This document shows positions 12,628 to 21,457 of a stretch of 32,411 nucleotides of DNA, in pieces; positions within the stretch are counted from its first letter, which is position 1, and the number at the start of each line of letters is the position of its first letter. The stretch comes from Gemmatimonadota bacterium (GTDB lineage Bacteria; Gemmatimonadota; Gemmatimonadetes; Gemmatimonadales; GWC2-71-9), in NCBI GenBank assembly GCA_003222235.1, contig QHVD01000023.1:1-32411 (forward strand), given 5' to 3'. The notes beneath the pieces were generated by a model. That model was not told where the DNA came from. It was given only the letters and a program-made list of their open reading frames with translations, and searched no databases. A program made the position numbers and the translations under genes.

Positions 12628-13560
12628 TCAGCGGGCGGGGGGCCACGCGAACGTGGCGAGGAGCGTGTCGCCGCCGGTGAGGGCGAGCTGACGCGCTACG
12701 TTGTCGAGCCGCCCGCAGCGGATGCGTGCCGGCTCCGTCGAGCCGGGGACGACGACGCGCAGGCAGACGGCGTCCGCGTCGACGGCGAGGGCGCTGTCGC
12801 GCCCGGTGCGGGGCGGGTCAGGCCGCTCGAGCCTGACGTCGAGCTCGGACGTCTCGCCGCCCAGGGCGAACCTGACCCGGCGACCGGGGGTTTCGGGGAC
12901 CAGGTCGATCGCCCGTTGGCTGCTCGCGGTGTCGCCGCGCACGAGCGCCAGGCGGACCAGCACGCGCCGCGGTGGGACGACCGCCCGGGCATCGAACGTG
13001 AGGGCGCCGTCCGCGACCGTCACCCCCTCGCTAGGGCGCGTTTCGCCGGCGGCGAACTCCCGGCCGACCGTGATCTCTACCCACAGCGCACGCTCCCGCT
13101 GCAGGCGGCCGGCGGTGGCCGGGGTTGAGGGCGGGGGCGGGGGCGGGCCAAAGGGGTATAGCCGCGCCGTCCCACCCCACGCCACGCGCGTCCAACGCCG
13201 GTAACTGTCCTCCTCCCAGAGCGGCAGCCCGCGGCGCGAGCGGCCTGCCTGGCGCCGACTCAAGAACACGCCCGCCAGATTCACGGTGTCGGGCTCGGGG
13301 AGGATGCCGAGCAACCCCTCCAGCTCGGCCGTTTCCGTGCGAAGCGACAATCGCAGGGCCGTCTCAGGCGGGCCGCTCACGACGCCCGTCGCGAGGCGCT
13401 GCGTATCGCCGTCGAACCGCTCGACCACGTGCAGGAGGTACCTCACCCGATAGCCCGCGCCCTGGTGAGCGAGCGGAGGGCCGGGGCGGTTGGAAACGCC
13501 GGGAGGGCTGGCGGCGACGAGCGCCGCGGCCACCAGGCTACTGCGCCACGAAGCTGGCAC
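12628..13560 (-). CDS. Hypothetical secreted protein with Pro-rich segment
   Basis: Signal-peptide-like N-terminus MPASWRSSLVAAALVAASPPG; co-directional with the zf-HC2 gene and overlapping it. Confidence 0.6.
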   Translation of the reverse strand: MPASWRSSLVAAALVAASPPGVSNRPGPPLAHQGAGYRVRYLLHVVERFDGDTQRLATGVVSGPPETALRLSLRTETAELEGLLGILPEPDTVNLAGVFLSRRQAGRSRRGLPLWEEDSYRRWTRVAWGGTARLYPFGPPPPPPSTPATAGRLQRERALWVEITVGREFAAGETRPSEGVTVADGALTFDARAVVPPRRVLVRLALVRGDTASSQRAIDLVPETPGRRVRFALGGETSELDVRLERPDPPRTGRDSALAVDADAVCLRVVVPGSTEPARIRCGRLDNVARQLALTGGDTLLATFAWPPAR

Positions 13561-13873
13561 GCGTGGCCTCCAGCGGTTCGGGGCTCGGCCCGGCCCAGCG
13601 CCGGTGGCCGAGCCAGCCCGCTGCAGTCCCGACCACGAGGCTGATCGCCATCCACAGTGCCAGCGTACGCCCGCGCATCGGGTGCCTCGGCACGGTCCGA
13701 GCGTGCGGCTCTCCCGCTGAGCGCGCGAACGCGACCCGCATCTCGAGGTGGTTCACCCGGGCTTCGGCGCAGTGCCGGCAACCGACCAGGTGACGCGCCA
13801 GCGCGGCGCGCTCGGTGAGGCTCAGCTCGTCATCCAGCTCCAGATCGATTTGTCGCACCCAGTCGTCGTGCAT
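13538..13873 (-). CDS. Zinc-finger (zf-HC2) anti-sigma-factor-like membrane protein
   Basis: MHDDWVRQIDLELDDELSLTERAALARHLVGCRHCAEA (HxxxCxxC) followed by one TM helix LALWMAISLVVGTAAGWLG. Confidence 0.75.
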   Translation of the reverse strand: MHDDWVRQIDLELDDELSLTERAALARHLVGCRHCAEARVNHLEMRVAFARSAGEPHARTVPRHPMRGRTLALWMAISLVVGTAAGWLGHRRWAGPSPEPLEATRASFVAQ

Positions 13874-14601
13874 CACGGCAACTCCTCCCGCACGCGATAC
13901 CGCAGCGCCCGGCGCTGCATCCAGCGCACCGCCAGCGCGTCGGCGAGGGACCGGAACACCCGGTTCCACATGCCGTACTTGGTCAGGCCCAAGCGCCTCG
14001 GCCGATGCCGCACGGGCACTTCCGCCACGGTGCCGCCATGCAGCTTGATCAACGTAGGCAGGAAACGGTGCATGCCGTTGAACAGCGGCAGCGCGCGTAG
14101 GGCGTCGGCACGAAACGCCTTGAGCGAGCAGCCCGTGTCACGGATCGTCTCGCCGTTCAGCCGGTTCCGCACGGCGTTGGCGACGCGACTCTGCAGCCGC
14201 TTCCAGCCGCCGTCCTGCCGGTTCACGCGATAGCCCACGACAGCCGTCGCGCCGCTCCGCTCCAGCTCGGCGAGAAGTGCCGGGATGTCTGCGGGGTCGT
14301 TCTGCAGGTCGGCGTCGAGGGTGACGATCGTGCGCCCGCACGCCGCCCGGAACCCCGCCGCGAACGCGGCCGACTGCCCCGCGCGCGCGGCGAGCGCGAC
14401 GATATGGAGCTCGGGATGGTCCCGCCTCAGCTCCTTGAGCGCGTCGAGCGAGCCGTCGGTCGAGCCGTCGTCCACCGCGACGATCTCATAGTCCGACCCG
14501 ATCCGCCCCAGGGCCCGGCCGATCTCCTCGATCAGGAGCGGCAGGTTATCGCGCTCGTTGTACAGCGGCACCACGAGCGAGAGGTCAACCGGGCCGGACA
14601 T
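13873..14601 (-). CDS. Family 2 glycosyltransferase (DPM1/polyprenyl-phosphate type)
   Basis: LSLVVPLYNERDNLPLLIEEIGRAL, IVAVDDGSTDGSLDAL, TLDADLQNDPADIPALL. Confidence 0.92.
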   Translation of the reverse strand: MSGPVDLSLVVPLYNERDNLPLLIEEIGRALGRIGSDYEIVAVDDGSTDGSLDALKELRRDHPELHIVALAARAGQSAAFAAGFRAACGRTIVTLDADLQNDPADIPALLAELERSGATAVVGYRVNRQDGGWKRLQSRVANAVRNRLNGETIRDTGCSLKAFRADALRALPLFNGMHRFLPTLIKLHGGTVAEVPVRHRPRRLGLTKYGMWNRVFRSLADALAVRWMQRRALRYRVREELP

Positions 14602-15248: not shown

Positions 15249-16310
15249 GTGTCCGAGGTCCTGTCACGTCGCGAGTTCCTCGCCTCCACCGCCGTCGGCC
15301 TCGCCGCCACGACCGCCCTGGAGATACCCCACCCCATGCGGCCACCGCGCCCGCTGCCGCCCCAAAGCCGCTGGGCGGCGAAGCCCGTCGTCGTCTCGAG
15401 CGCGAACGGGTTGCGCGCGGTGCAGAAGGCCTTCGACATGCTGATGCAGGGCGCCGACACCCTGGATGCGGCCATCGAGGGCGTGAAGATCCAGGAGCTC
15501 GACCCCAACGACGACTCGGTCGGCTACGGCGGGCTGCCCAACGCCGACGGCGTGGTGCAGCTCGACGCCTCCTGCATGCATGGGCCCACGAAACGCGCCG
15601 GCGCGGTGGGTGCCCTGGAGGGGATCAAGACGCCCTCCGAGGTGGCGAAGCTCGTCCTCAAGTACACGAACCACATCTTCCTCGTGGGCGAGGGCGCCAA
15701 GCGGTTCGCGCTGCAGTACTGCTTCAAGGAGGAAGACCTGCTGACCGAGCACGCTCGGGAGGTGTGGCTGCACTGGCGCGCCAATCTCAATCCCGACGAC
15801 GATTACCTGGACGTGCCCGAAGCCGAGCACATGGCAGTCCGGCCGACGGGGACCATCAACTGTGACTGCGTCACGCCCGCGGGCGACGTGTCCTCGGTCA
15901 CGACCACGAGCGGACTGGCCTTCAAGGTCCCCGGGCGGGTCGGGGACAGCCCCATCGTCGGCGCCGGCCAGTACACCGACAACGACATCGGCGCGGCCGG
16001 CTCCACGGGGCGCGGCGAGTCGAACATCAAAGTGTGCGGAGGCTTCCTCACCGTGGAGCACATGCGTCGCGGCATGAAGCCGGCGGATGCCTGCCTCGAG
16101 ACGTTAAAGCGCGTGGTGAAGCTGAGCGAGGCGCGCCTGCTCGACGAGCGCGGCCGGCCGAGGTTCGACCTCAAGTTCTACGCCGTGAACAAGCGGGGCG
16201 AGTTCGGCGCCGCGTCGCTCTTCCCCGGACGGTTCGCCGTGCACGACGGCACCGAGGCGAAGCTCATGGACGCGGCGTACCTGTACGAGCGGCCCGCTGC
16301 ATCCCGGTAG
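15249..16310 (+). CDS. N4-(beta-N-acetylglucosaminyl)-L-asparaginase-like Ntn hydrolase with Tat-type signal
   Basis: SRREFLASTAVGLAATTAL (twin-Arg); DTLDAAIEGVKIQELDPNDDSVGYGGLPNADGVVQLDA; probable nucleophile Thr in PTGTINCDCVTPAGDVSSVTTTSG. Confidence 0.85.
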   Translation: MSEVLSRREFLASTAVGLAATTALEIPHPMRPPRPLPPQSRWAAKPVVVSSANGLRAVQKAFDMLMQGADTLDAAIEGVKIQELDPNDDSVGYGGLPNADGVVQLDASCMHGPTKRAGAVGALEGIKTPSEVAKLVLKYTNHIFLVGEGAKRFALQYCFKEEDLLTEHAREVWLHWRANLNPDDDYLDVPEAEHMAVRPTGTINCDCVTPAGDVSSVTTTSGLAFKVPGRVGDSPIVGAGQYTDNDIGAAGSTGRGESNIKVCGGFLTVEHMRRGMKPADACLETLKRVVKLSEARLLDERGRPRFDLKFYAVNKRGEFGAASLFPGRFAVHDGTEAKLMDAAYLYERPAASR

Positions 16311-17437
16311 GGCGGCCGCCGCGCTCGTCGGGACGCTCGCCCTGGACCCGGCGATTCCCACACCCCTCGCGGCGCAGCGCTATTGGCGCGAGAACCTGTA
16401 CCCGTACGCGTACTACAGCACCATAGACGGGCTCTGGGGCGCGTTCCATTACGGGCGCTACAGCCCCCTCGATGCCGTCGAGCGCCCTGAGCCGGATCTG
16501 GCGTCTGCGAGCTTCGACGCGGGCGCGAGCACGCAGGGGAGCTATGCCGTTGCCGTGGATGCGCAGGCGCCGGCCTGGTGGGAGGGCTGGCGTGCCCGGC
16601 TCACGCTCACCACGGCTCGGTCCAACCGCATGGGCTACTACGGGCTCGGGAACGACACGCAGTACGCGGTCGACAGCCTGACGACGGCCGGGGGTCAGCC
16701 GCACATCCACGGCTGCGCGCGCCACCGTGCAACACCGGGTCTTCGGGCCCGTGCGCGTCCTGCTCGGCGCCGCCCTGACGCGCAGCAGCTTCCGAGCGCT
16801 GCCGGGGCCGAGCGTGTTCCGGGAGGATCTCGCGTCCGGGACCGTAGATCCGCGGACCGTCCCGTTCACCGACAAGGTGATCCGCGCCGGCGTCGTCGTC
16901 GACACGCGGGACAACGAGATCGATCCGCACCGGGGGCTGTTGCTGGAGGCGCTGCTCGCGAGCGGCACCGGCTACACGCGCACGACCGCGGGCGCCGCCG
17001 TCGAGCTGCATCCATTCGAGCCGCTGGTGCTGGCGGGTCGCGTCGCGGGAGAAGCCATGGGCGGGAGTCCTCCGCTTGCCGCCCAACAGGAAATGGAATC
17101 GAGCGAGCTGCCCTTCCTCGCGGTCGGCGGCTACCGCTCGCTGCGGGGGTATCACGACGGGCGGTTCGTGGGGCACGGGAAGCTCGTGGGCGGGCTCGAG
17201 GCACGCTATGCGGTGCTCTGGGTTCCGAGCCTGATCGAGCTGAGGCTGGTGGCGTTCTACGATGCGGGCCGCGTCTTCGGGCCCGGTGAAGCGGCACGGC
17301 TCACCACGCGGGGGCTGCACGGGAGCGGTGGCGGGGAGGTCGCGGTCCGGTTGCTGCGCAACTCGCTGCTGGTGGTCGGCTACGGCCGCGGCAGCGAAGG
17401 TGGGCAGCTCCTGTTCGGGACGACTTGGAGTTACTGA
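16297..17437 (+). pseudogene. BamA/Omp85-like outer-membrane beta-barrel protein, frameshifted near 16690-16700 and lacking a canonical start codon
   Basis: Frame 1: AAAALVGTLALDPAIPTPLAAQRYWRENLYPYAYYSTIDGLWGAFHYGRYS...GLGNDTQYAVDSLTTAG; frame 2: VSRTSTAARATVQHRVFGPVRVLLGAALT...VRAGVVVDTRDNEIDPHRGLLLEALL...VGGYRSLRGYHDGRFVG...FYDAGRVFGPGE. 5' boundary approximate. Confidence 0.7.
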
Positions 17438-17509: not shown

Positions 17510-18130
17510 ATGAGCCAAGCCGACCTCACCCGCCAGCGACTGGTCCGCGCCGCACTCGAGCTGTTCACCGCGCAGGGCTACCACGTAACCACCACGCCGC
17601 TCATCGCGAAGAAGGCGGGCGTCGCGGAAGGGACCATCTACCGCCACTTCGCCTCGAAGCAACACCTGCTCAACGAGCTGTATCGGGCGGCGGCCCGCTG
17701 GGGGCGGCGGCTCGTGAAGGAGGCTGACGCCTTGAACGTGGGGCCGCGGGAGAAGCTCGCGGAGCTCGGCCGCAGTCTCGTCGCCGGGGCGAGCCGCGAG
17801 CCGGCAGTGGCCCGGCTGTTCCTCATTCAGCGTCACGGCGACCTGCTGGACGACGAGAGCAGGAAGCTGGCGCGGGACTTCAGCCTCGACCTCGAGGCCC
17901 TGGTCGCCCAGGCGAAGGCGGAGGGGTCCGTGAAGCCGGGAGCCGCCGACATCTGGGCTGCCGTCTGGCTCAGCGTCGTGACGCTCGCGATCGATCGCGT
18001 CTCAGCCAGAGACTGGCCGCAGACGCACGCAGGCGTGAAGCTGGCGTTCGCCGGGGCGTGGGATGCGATTGCCGCCCCGCCCCCCGCAGCCCCGAGCGGT
18101 CAGGCGGACGGTGGGTCGGGCGGACAGTAG
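17510..18130 (+). CDS. TetR/AcrR-family transcriptional regulator
   Basis: RLVRAALELFTAQGYHVTTTPLIAKKAGVAEGTIYRHFASKQHLLNELY; C-terminus and stop lie in the octamer array. Confidence 0.92.
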   Translation: MSQADLTRQRLVRAALELFTAQGYHVTTTPLIAKKAGVAEGTIYRHFASKQHLLNELYRAAARWGRRLVKEADALNVGPREKLAELGRSLVAGASREPAVARLFLIQRHGDLLDDESRKLARDFSLDLEALVAQAKAEGSVKPGAADIWAAVWLSVVTLAIDRVSARDWPQTHAGVKLAFAGAWDAIAAPPPAAPSGQADGGSGGQ

Positions 18131-18171
18131 GCCGCCGTCACAGTCCGCCCGACCGCCGGTCCGCCCGACCG
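18097..18171. repeat. Head-to-head octamer array A: CGGTCAGG CGGACGGT GGGTCGGG CGGACAGT - 11 nt - ACAGTCCG CCCGACCG CCGGTCCG CCCGACCG
   Basis: Direct reading; spans the convergent overlap of the TetR and metallophosphoesterase 3' ends. Confidence 0.85.
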
Positions 18172-19370
18172 GCGCAGTTCGAACAGCGCGATCTCCGGCG
18201 GCGCGAGCACGCGGATCGGCACGCCCACCACGCCGATGCCGCGGCTCACATACAGCTGGCTCTCGCCCCGCTGAAAGTGCCCCATGACGTACTTCGTGAT
18301 CATACGGCCCGGGGACCACCCGACCACCGGCACGTACAGCTGCCCGCCATGAATGTGCCCGGCGAGGGTGAGCGGGATGCCGCGCGGCACGGCGCTGTCC
18401 CACGCGCCGGGCCGGTGCGCGAGCAGCAGCTTGAACGCCTCCGCCGGCGCCCCACGGAGCGCCGCGTCCACGTCCTCGGCCTGCGGGTCGTCGAACTTCC
18501 AGCTGCGCGGGTCGTCGATCCCGAGCAGCGCGAGGCTCGCGCCCTCACGCTCGACCACGTGGCAGCCGTTCTTCACGAACACCTGCCCCGCGTCCCGGCA
18601 GCCACGGACCACCGCCTCCTCGCCGGTGTAGCGGTCGTGGTTGCCGAGCACCGTCACGACGCCGAGGGGCGCATGGAGGTCGCGGAAGGCGTGCACGTAG
18701 GCCGGGATGTACGAGGGCGAGATGTCGATCATATCGCCCGTTTGCACGATGAGGTCGGGCCCGAGCGCGTTCGACAGCGCCACGATCTCCTGCATCCGGT
18801 CTTGCTCGAGATGGATGCCGGCGTGCAGGTCGGAGAGGTGGAGCACGGTGAGGCGGTCGAGGCCTGCGGGTAGGTCGGGGAAGATCAGGGTGCGGCGCGT
18901 GATCGCGGGAAGCCGGTAGGCGCTCCAGATGCCGTGGACCGAGAGCGTGGCTCCCGCTGCCGCGTATGCGTACGTTGCGCGGGCCAGAAAGCGGCGACGA
19001 GAGAGGAAACGGTGGGGCGGACTGGCGGACGGCCGGTCGGTCGCCGGAGCAACTGACCGCCCGTCCACCAGACCGCCCGTCCGACAAAGTACACCACCAG
19101 CAGCGCGCAGAAGATCCACCCCAGCAGCTGCCACGCGATCCAGGGCCCGAGGTAGGGGATGCGCCCGACGCCCCAAACCGAGCCGAACAGCACGCGGCGG
19201 GCAACGAAGATCCATGGGACGTTGAAGACCGCGAACACGGCGGCGAGCGCGGCACGCCCGAGGCGCGCCCGGCGGGGCCGCGCCGGGTCGGGAAGACGCT
19301 CGCGCAGGTACAGATAGATCAAGATCTGCGGCGCCACGAACAGCAGCAGATAGATTAGTCGCGTGGTCAT
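18100..19370 (-). CDS. Membrane-anchored metallophosphoesterase; frame changes inside repeat array B
   Basis: N-terminal frame MTTRLIYLLLFVAPQILIYLYLRE...WQLLGWIFCALLVVYFVGRAVWWTGG; after about 19018-19083 the other frame gives HRFLSRRRFLARATYAYAAAGATL...TVLHLSDLHAGIH...IVQTGDMIDI...VVTVLGNHDRYTG...LAGHIHGGQ. Confidence 0.8.
19018..19083. repeat. Head-to-head octamer array B: CGGACTGG CGGACGGC CGGTCGGT CGCCGGAG - AC - ACTGACCG CCCGTCCA CCAGACCG CCCGTCCG (centre approximate)
   Basis: Direct reading; same CGGWCnGG unit family as arrays A and C. Confidence 0.8.
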
Positions 19371-19377
19371 ACGCTCC

Positions 19378-20624
19378 ATGTCCGTCCTCTGCGCCGGCCT
19401 GGTCGTCGTGCGCGGCGCGCTCGCCGGGCAACAACTCACCCCCACCGAGCGCGCCACGGCGGTGGCCACCATCTGGGCGGAGGCTCGCTACAACTTCGCC
19501 TACTGGGACCGGGTGCGCGCGGACTGGGACTCGGCCCTCGGCGCGAACCTCAAGCTCGCGGCCGAGCCGCAGTCGGATCTCGCCTTCTACCGCCGTCTAC
19601 GGCGCTTGGGTCGCGCCTCGCACGCCCGCCGCTGCGCCTGGAGACGGTCGAGCGCCGCCCGTTCATCCTCGACTATGCCGAAAACGACGAGATGCGCATC
19701 GCGCGCCCCGAGCGGCTCTCGGAGATTCTCGCCGTCCAGGGTGTGCCGGCCGAGACCTGGGTCCGCGACTCGATCCTCCCCGAGATCGCCGCCGCGACCG
19801 CTGCGGACCGCTGGCAGCGCGCGATCCAATGGATGCTCGAAGGGGAGAAGGGCACGCCGCTCCACCTGCTGATCCGGGTCCCCGGCGGCGAGCAGCGCGG
19901 TATCAGCGTCACCCGCAGCGTCTCGCTCAACGACCGCTGGCCGTTCACTCCGCCCGAGCTCGAGCTCGATTCGCTTCCGGGCGGTGTGGCGGTCGTCCGG
20001 GTCAATTCGCTCGCCGACGAGGAGGTCGCGCGGCGCTTCGACCGCGCGTTCCCTGACTTCGCCCGCGTCACTGGCCTGATCCTCGACCTGCGCGCCGCGG
20101 CCGGCGGCAGGAGCGAATTCGGCTATCAGATCCTCGCCCGCCTCGAGGACAAGCCGTTCCTCGCGGCCCGCTGGAAAACGCCCGAATACCGTGCCGCGTT
20201 CCGGGCCTGGCGGATGGCGGACTCCGTTATGACGTGGTACGGCCCGCCTGCCGACACCGTTCGGCCCCGCACCGACCGTCCGACATACACAGGACCCCTC
20301 GCGGTGCTCGCGTCGACGGGCACCGCCGGTGCCGCGGAAGATTTCCTCGTGGCATTCCGCACCTCGGGTCGGGGGATGACCGTCGGCGAGCCGTCGGCCG
20401 GGACTCCTGGCGACGTGGCGCCCATCCAGCTCCCAAAGAGCTGGGCCGTGCAGTTGTCGGTCACACGTCACACGTTCCCCGACGGCACCGAATTTTTCGG
20501 AGCGGGCATCAAACCGGAGATCCCCGTCACGCAGCCGGTGGGCGATTTTCTCGCGGGGAGAGATGCGGTGCTGGAGAGGGCGCGGAAGTATCTCAAGACG
20601 GTAGAGGGCGGTAGAGGGCGGTAG
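19378..20624 (+). pseudogene. S41-like peptidase (C-terminal processing protease type), frameshift/deletion near 19605
   Basis: N part MSVLCAGLVVVRGALAGQQLTPTERATAVATIWAEARYNFAYWDRV...DLAFYRRLRRL, then in another frame SRLARPPLRLETVERRPFILDYAENDEMRIARPERLSEILAVQGVPAETWVRDSILPEI...LILDLRAAAGGRSEFGYQILARL...VLASTGTAGAAEDFL. Confidence 0.7.
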
Positions 20625-20669
20625 AAGACGGTAGAAGTTGCTCCGCCCCTCTACCGTCTTCTACCGTCC
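20596..20669. repeat. Head-to-head decamer array: AGACGGTAGA GGGCGGTAGA GGGCGGTAGA AGACGGTAGA - 14 nt - TCTACCGTCT TCTACCGTCC
   Basis: Direct reading; both convergent stop codons (TAG 20622-20624 plus; CTA 20651-20653 minus) lie inside units. Confidence 0.9.
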
Positions 20670-21457
20670 TCCAGAGTCTCCCTGAAGAATCGAACCACCG
20701 CGCTCCAGGCCGAGTCCGCCACCTCCGGCTTCTCGCGCGTGCGCAGGAAGCCGTGCCCGACGCCGGGGTAGACGGTGTACCGGTAGGCCTTGCCGTACTG
20801 CCTCACCGCCGCGGCGACGTCCGCGAGCCCCGCGTCTATGCGCGCGTCGTTCTCGGCGTACACGCCCAGCCCGCTGGCGCGCACCCGGGCGATGGCCGAT
20901 GCGTCGGGGCCCGGCCCGTAGCACACGACGAACGCCCGGAGCGATGCGTTATTCGTCGCGTAGCGGAAGCTCTGGCCCCCGCCCCAGCAGAATCCGATCA
21001 CGCCGATCCGATCGCGGCGCACGGCCTTCAGCGTCTTGAGGTACCCAACCGTCGCGTCGACATCCATCGTCACCGTGTCGGGATTGAGGCCGCCGATGAG
21101 CTTCCGCGCCGAATCCGTAGACGCGGGCGTGCCACCGCGGCGTGACAGCAGGTCGGGCGCCAGGGCGACGAAGCCCTCCCGCGCCAACTGCTCCGTCGTC
21201 TGGCGGATGAAGTCGGACATCCCGAAAATCTCGTGGATCACGACCACCCCCGGCGCCCGATCCGCGCGTTCCGGGTAGGCGAGATACGCGGTGATCGTGT
21301 CTCGCCCGGAGAGGTATTTCACGTACTCGGCGTGAATATCGGCGGACGGGCGGTCAGGCGGTCGGGCGGACAGCAGCACCGCCGCCGCGGCCAGCATCGC
21401 GCCCACGCAGAAACCGACCGCCAGACCGCCCGTCCACCAGTCCGCCCTACTTGCCAT
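20651..21457 (-). CDS. Dienelactone hydrolase family protein with N-terminal membrane anchor
   Basis: GVVVIHEIFGMSDFIRQTTEQLAREGFVALAPDLLSR, IGVIGFCWGGGQSF, YPGVGHGF. Confidence 0.9.
   Translation of the reverse strand: MASRADWWTGGLAVGFCVGAMLAAAAVLLSARPPDRPSADIHAEYVKYLSGRDTITAYLAYPERADRAPGVVVIHEIFGMSDFIRQTTEQLAREGFVALAPDLLSRRGGTPASTDSARKLIGGLNPDTVTMDVDATVGYLKTLKAVRRDRIGVIGFCWGGGQSFRYATNNASLRAFVVCYGPGPDASAIARVRASGLGVYAENDARIDAGLADVAAAVRQYGKAYRYTVYPGVGHGFLRTREKPEVADSAWSAVVRFFRETLEDGRRR
21343..21444. repeat. Octamer array C: CGGACGGG CGGTCAGG CGGTCGGG CGGACAGC - 38 nt - ACCGACCG CCAGACCG CCCGTCCA CCAGTCCG
   Basis: Direct reading; the inverted arms encode residues flanking the N-terminal TM helix of the dienelactone hydrolase (DWWTGGLAV ... 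LSARPPDRPSAD). Confidence 0.85.

Follow-up and report, generated by a model that had tools for sequence, protein, structure and literature searches.

The window analyzed here is a stretch of 32,411 nucleotides, contig C260 in the metagenome-assembled genome of a Gemmatimonadota soil bacterium (603 contigs totaling 3.84 Mb, 86% complete). On its reverse strand lies a metallophosphoesterase gene that the assembly divides between two frames. The membrane (N-terminal) part spans 18885..19379; it starts with an ATG at 19379 (or 19370) and runs on to a stop at 18885 that is out of frame, and its homologous portion is at about 19065-19370. The second frame, on the same strand at 18100..19014, encodes a Tat-like signal (SRRRFL) and the catalytic domain, a PF00149 match (E=1.7e-9). 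The linker of the protein is encoded by an inverted, hairpin-forming octamer array (array B, 19010..19083) with arms at 19010-19044 and 19049-19083. The neighboring S41 peptidase gene (19363..20624, forward strand) is divergently transcribed and is also frame-broken.

Read in order, the metallophosphoesterase gene gives hydrophobic N-terminal segments, the twin-arginine SRRRFL and a further hydrophobic segment, as assigned by eye. The twin-arginine motif stands just before the last hydrophobic segment and the metallophosphoesterase domain follows it. Polytopic YkuE-like metallophosphoesterases, for which a requirement for both Sec and Tat has been proposed, share this arrangement of N-terminal membrane segments, a twin-arginine motif before the last of these and a calcineurin-like phosphoesterase domain (PMC5449189). 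The window gene differs from them in that its linker is encoded by an inverted repeat array and the gene is frame-broken there. Judged from its sequence, the window gene fits a candidate Sec/Tat dual-targeted YkuE-like metallophosphoesterase. Array B would then encode the cytoplasmic loop that joins the third membrane segment to the Tat signal, a topology drawn from homology and inspection. A search by sequence for a matching solved structure found none. In seven distant class-level homologs (L094-L100) the N-terminal parts differ and no array linker was seen.

Octamer arrays in the window

The unit of array B is the octamer GGCGG[AT]CN. The window contains 16 matches to GGCGGWCNGGCGGWC (at most one mismatch) versus 0.74 expected, a count reached in 0 of 100 shuffles, and the genome contains 58 exact GGCGGACNGGCGGAC unit pairs versus 1 for the reversed control. 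The first-pass annotation had reported an octamer array at this position, and the array is indeed far above chance. The tandem layout given to it did not survive, however, because the arms are inverted, 80% complementary and fold as a hairpin (DNA fold of -35.2 kcal/mol; z=-5.95; 0 of 200 shuffles). These arms are short (about 3.5 units) and imperfect, and are mutually in register.

Array B is one of three GGCGG[AT]CN arrays in the window (18096-18171, 19010-19083, and 21341-21446). The second array, also inverted, lies where the TetR gene and the metallophosphoesterase gene end convergently. The third is inverted and in frame within the dienelactone hydrolase gene, where one arm lies on either side of the codons for that protein's hydrophobic N-terminal segment. 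An inverted array of a different unit, the 10-nt CGGTAGARGR, lies at the convergent S41/dienelactone hydrolase junction (20615..20668). Many relatives (L031-L059, about 1500-1650) also carry inverted arrays at this junction, mostly of period 10 and with varying units. Array B is probably one of the coding representatives of a family of inverted arrays with short units (7-10 nt) that is spread over the genome in this Gemmatimonadota family; the gene contexts of the arrays in G000 come from a home-made gene caller and are rough. The arrays at gene ends might play a role in transcription termination.

The frame break in the metallophosphoesterase gene

In the assembly the Tat-plus-catalytic part is read in another frame than the membrane part, as the first-pass annotation had stated (the gap between them is 2 modulo 3). 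The switch had also been placed within the array. An independent segmentation by codon usage also changes frame, between 18990 and 19045; the exact base of the break cannot be fixed within about 19000-19065. The same segmentation gave further same-strand frame changes at 13539-13880 and 16310-16713, which may be small genes or frame breaks.

The frame was compared in 27 family genomes that have both phosphoesterase parts and in an overlapping set of 28 public loci. In all 27 genomes the gene is in one open frame through the linker. The 28 public loci are likewise in one frame except L059, which is broken downstream of its in-frame linker. In L059 a deletion at about 4000 breaks the phosphoesterase frame, and the linker carries another unit, GTACGCC. 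Among the relatives linker length varies widely but always by multiples of three. Compared with the aligned relative (L051/G015), the window has a net difference of 4 nt rather than of 8-nt units, and the units of the 5' arm are the same.

These data bear on the suggestion of a phase switch, in which octamers gained or lost would toggle the frame and so turn a membrane-anchored enzyme on and off. The 8-nt unit does not divide evenly into codons, the frames differ across array B, and gain of one unit or loss of two from an unseen in-frame ancestor would arithmetically give the window frame. Against this, none of the 27 relatives is out of frame, the window differs in length from L051 by 4 nt and the arms, at about 3.5 imperfect units each, are in register. 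No on and off alleles differing by whole units were found among these relatives, in a comparison set where G000 is the sole genome of its genus, and phase variation by unit number, as first proposed, is very improbable.

The two halves of the gene are under normal purifying selection. In the catalytic part pN/pS was 0.281 for the window and 0.272 for the relatives, and in the membrane part the values were 0.388 and 0.416, respectively. As these ratios are those of the relatives, the frame break is either recent or not real. An old pseudogene was ruled out by the same ratios together with the lack of internal stops.

Another possibility is a real split, in which the downstream part is translated alone as a Tat-exported phosphoesterase and the upstream part is a separate membrane protein. 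The catalytic frame is open and conserved, its first in-frame start candidate (a GTG at 19065, inside array B) gives a Tat-signal-like start, and Acidobacteria homologs start just before the Tat signal. However, both parts are fused in every family relative (27 of 27), which refutes the idea that they are always separate genes. Moreover, inspection gave no clear ribosome-binding site for the GTG, and the stop codon of the membrane frame comes only deep within the second part, an arrangement unfavorable to re-initiation. We consider a real split improbable. Still harder to credit, and the least plausible of the explanations weighed here, is programmed ribosomal frameshifting, in which the hairpin would shift ribosomes to give a fused protein from two frames. 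A strong hairpin does lie at the frame junction, but the relatives carry the hairpin and none needs a shift, and no slippery heptamer was evident by inspection.

The S41 peptidase gene has a frame-breaking deletion of ~52 nt relative to its relatives at about 19590-19630, where there is no array, and hence frame breaks at this locus need no repeats. For the metallophosphoesterase break the likeliest cause is a small indel private to this genome, or else a consensus or assembly error, within the hairpin or next to it. Both this break and that in the S41 gene would be accounted for by a private indel or by faulty assembly.

The linker array in relatives

Arrays of 7-8-nt units, likewise inverted, make up the linker in nearly every relative. 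The units vary by genome and include GTGCGTG, GTGCGTC, GTRCGCG, GGGAGCN, GGCGGTTN and GGCGG[AT]CN, among others. In 22 of 28 genomes no other 100-nt stretch of the gene folds as well as the linker (median z of -4.2); the fold is weak in G015 and G085. In G023 (L034, L068) an in-frame deletion, either real or an assembly collapse, took the 5' arm of the linker and the end of the membrane segment.

The linker arrays show compensatory changes in their arms with the frame intact. Among ten alignable linkers two-sided changes were found in 9 of 23 pairs, and the covariation score was 0.295 versus at most 0.08 for slid pairings, although part of this signal is one change common to related genomes. 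On the gene tree the linker unit changed at least 12 times. G003 and G009 are 90-92% identical over the rest of the gene, whereas their linker arrays are made of unrelated units.

Repeat units differ in step between species

Six unit families were counted across 28 genomes. The linker unit tracks the abundant units of its own genome (within-genus label permutation, p=0.00025, with own-site copies removed). A strict rule of one unit per genome was rejected, as there are several unit families per genome and the linker unit, although correlated with the abundant ones, is not always the commonest (for example, in G004).

Units were then compared site by site over selected array stretches in five genomes of one genus. 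The arrays keep orthologous sites while their units differ in step between species. The unit letter differs between G004 and G005 in the same direction at 14 of 14 shared sites with units in both, and between G005 and G008 at 12 of 12 shared sites; the compared loci were picked for holding units, and these counts are of switched sites among unit-bearing loci rather than a share of all sites. G004 has mostly GTxCGTG and G005 has GTxCGTC (units 66:9 versus 10:45 over all 16 matched sites), and the units of G005 and G008 stand at 7:49 versus 63:2. G004 and G008 have the same letter (48:1 and 51:1). By flank identity, however, G004 lies closer to G003 and G009, which are C-type genomes, than it does to G008, and hence more than one switch is likely.

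Two loci stood out in this comparison. One of the shared sites is a heptamer array in frame within a ribulose-phosphate 3-epimerase-like gene, assigned by eye (L179 1676 and L160 3059), and its units differ between the two genomes. In G005 (L148 2984-4569) one array has its arms separated by 1.6 kb, with a 535-codon open reading frame between them that starts in the array, whereas in the G004 counterpart (L127) the arms are adjacent.

Discussion

Our reading is that array B belongs to a family of inverted arrays and encodes the linker of the metallophosphoesterase, and that the frame break is a private indel or an assembly error and not a unit-number switch. We hold this account as a whole to be likely. 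We found no paper on hairpins or repeats in Gemmatimonadetes/Gemmatimonadota in the partial collection searched.

Mobile palindromic elements (REP/RAYT, MITE, or Rickettsia-type) inserted repeatedly into a tolerant linker would explain several features. Rickettsia palindromic elements occur in frame inside genes. Like these and like REP/REPIN-RAYT systems, the arrays are dispersed palindromes, many per genome; some insertions are in coding sequence, and unit families are replaced at one site. In contrast to Rickettsia elements and REPIN-RAYT, the Gemmatimonadota arrays are tandem short units that are stable at orthologous sites and have no consistent Y1 transposase. The sites are orthologous across species with the unit alone changed, and an array at the linker in nearly every relative is not what repeated insertion predicts. 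REP/RAYT elements are single palindromes, for the most part extragenic, that carry a conserved tag; the arrays do not have this form, being of tandem units and including coding copies. Y1 transposase matches numbered 0-4 per genome, with none found in four repeat-bearing genomes (G008, G021, G025, and G027), some of the genomes being incomplete. Transposases so few or not found fit REP/RAYT poorly and lend that candidate no support. Repeated insertion of mobile palindromes of any of these kinds is unlikely, if somewhat less so than a real split of the gene.

Heptameric G-rich tandem repeats have been described in Xanthomonas (GGGAATC) and in Nostoc (PMC4692102). Those repeats are also dispersed 7-nt tandem arrays that often form inverted pairs near gene ends and are sometimes intragenic. 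The Gemmatimonadota arrays are of the same kind in being dispersed short G-rich tandem units with frequent inverted pairs, although they depart from them in unit sequence and in the octamer period. They further differ in having many families of 7, 8, and 10 nt, which are species-specific at orthologous sites, and in that one site, the phosphoesterase linker, is coding and conserved.

A second likeness is to the DNA uptake sequence dialects of Neisseriaceae, which also show single-letter species variants, inverted pairs and intragenic copies (PMC3630211). The uptake sequences are single 10-12-mers present in thousands, whereas the Gemmatimonadota repeats are tandem 7-8-nt units in tens to hundreds (PMC3630211). 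At the selected sites of one genus, a species-specific dialect was found at many sites. The concerted unit pattern resembles uptake sequence dialects by analogy and in pattern only, and no uptake function is claimed.

From the site-by-site comparisons we infer that the arrays would persist at fixed sites while their units are rewritten in concert. The driver could be a copying process that makes the arrays of one genome alike, or else the preference of a sequence-specific factor for one unit. In a tentative version of the latter, a sequence-specific cellular factor might recognize the 7-8-nt inverted arrays of this Gemmatimonadota family, and a change in its preference would rewrite the units in concert at many fixed sites, intragenic arrays such as the phosphoesterase linker among them, to give species dialects. 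We consider this possible, but doubtful.

As for the frame break, it is probably of little consequence, and on this evidence it should not be taken for a phase switch. What is unusual is that dispersed repeats lie at orthologous places, some of them intragenic, with units that shift in step and differ between close species. This raises a testable question: how can short repeats scattered over a genome stay uniform in one species and yet shift from one species to the next?
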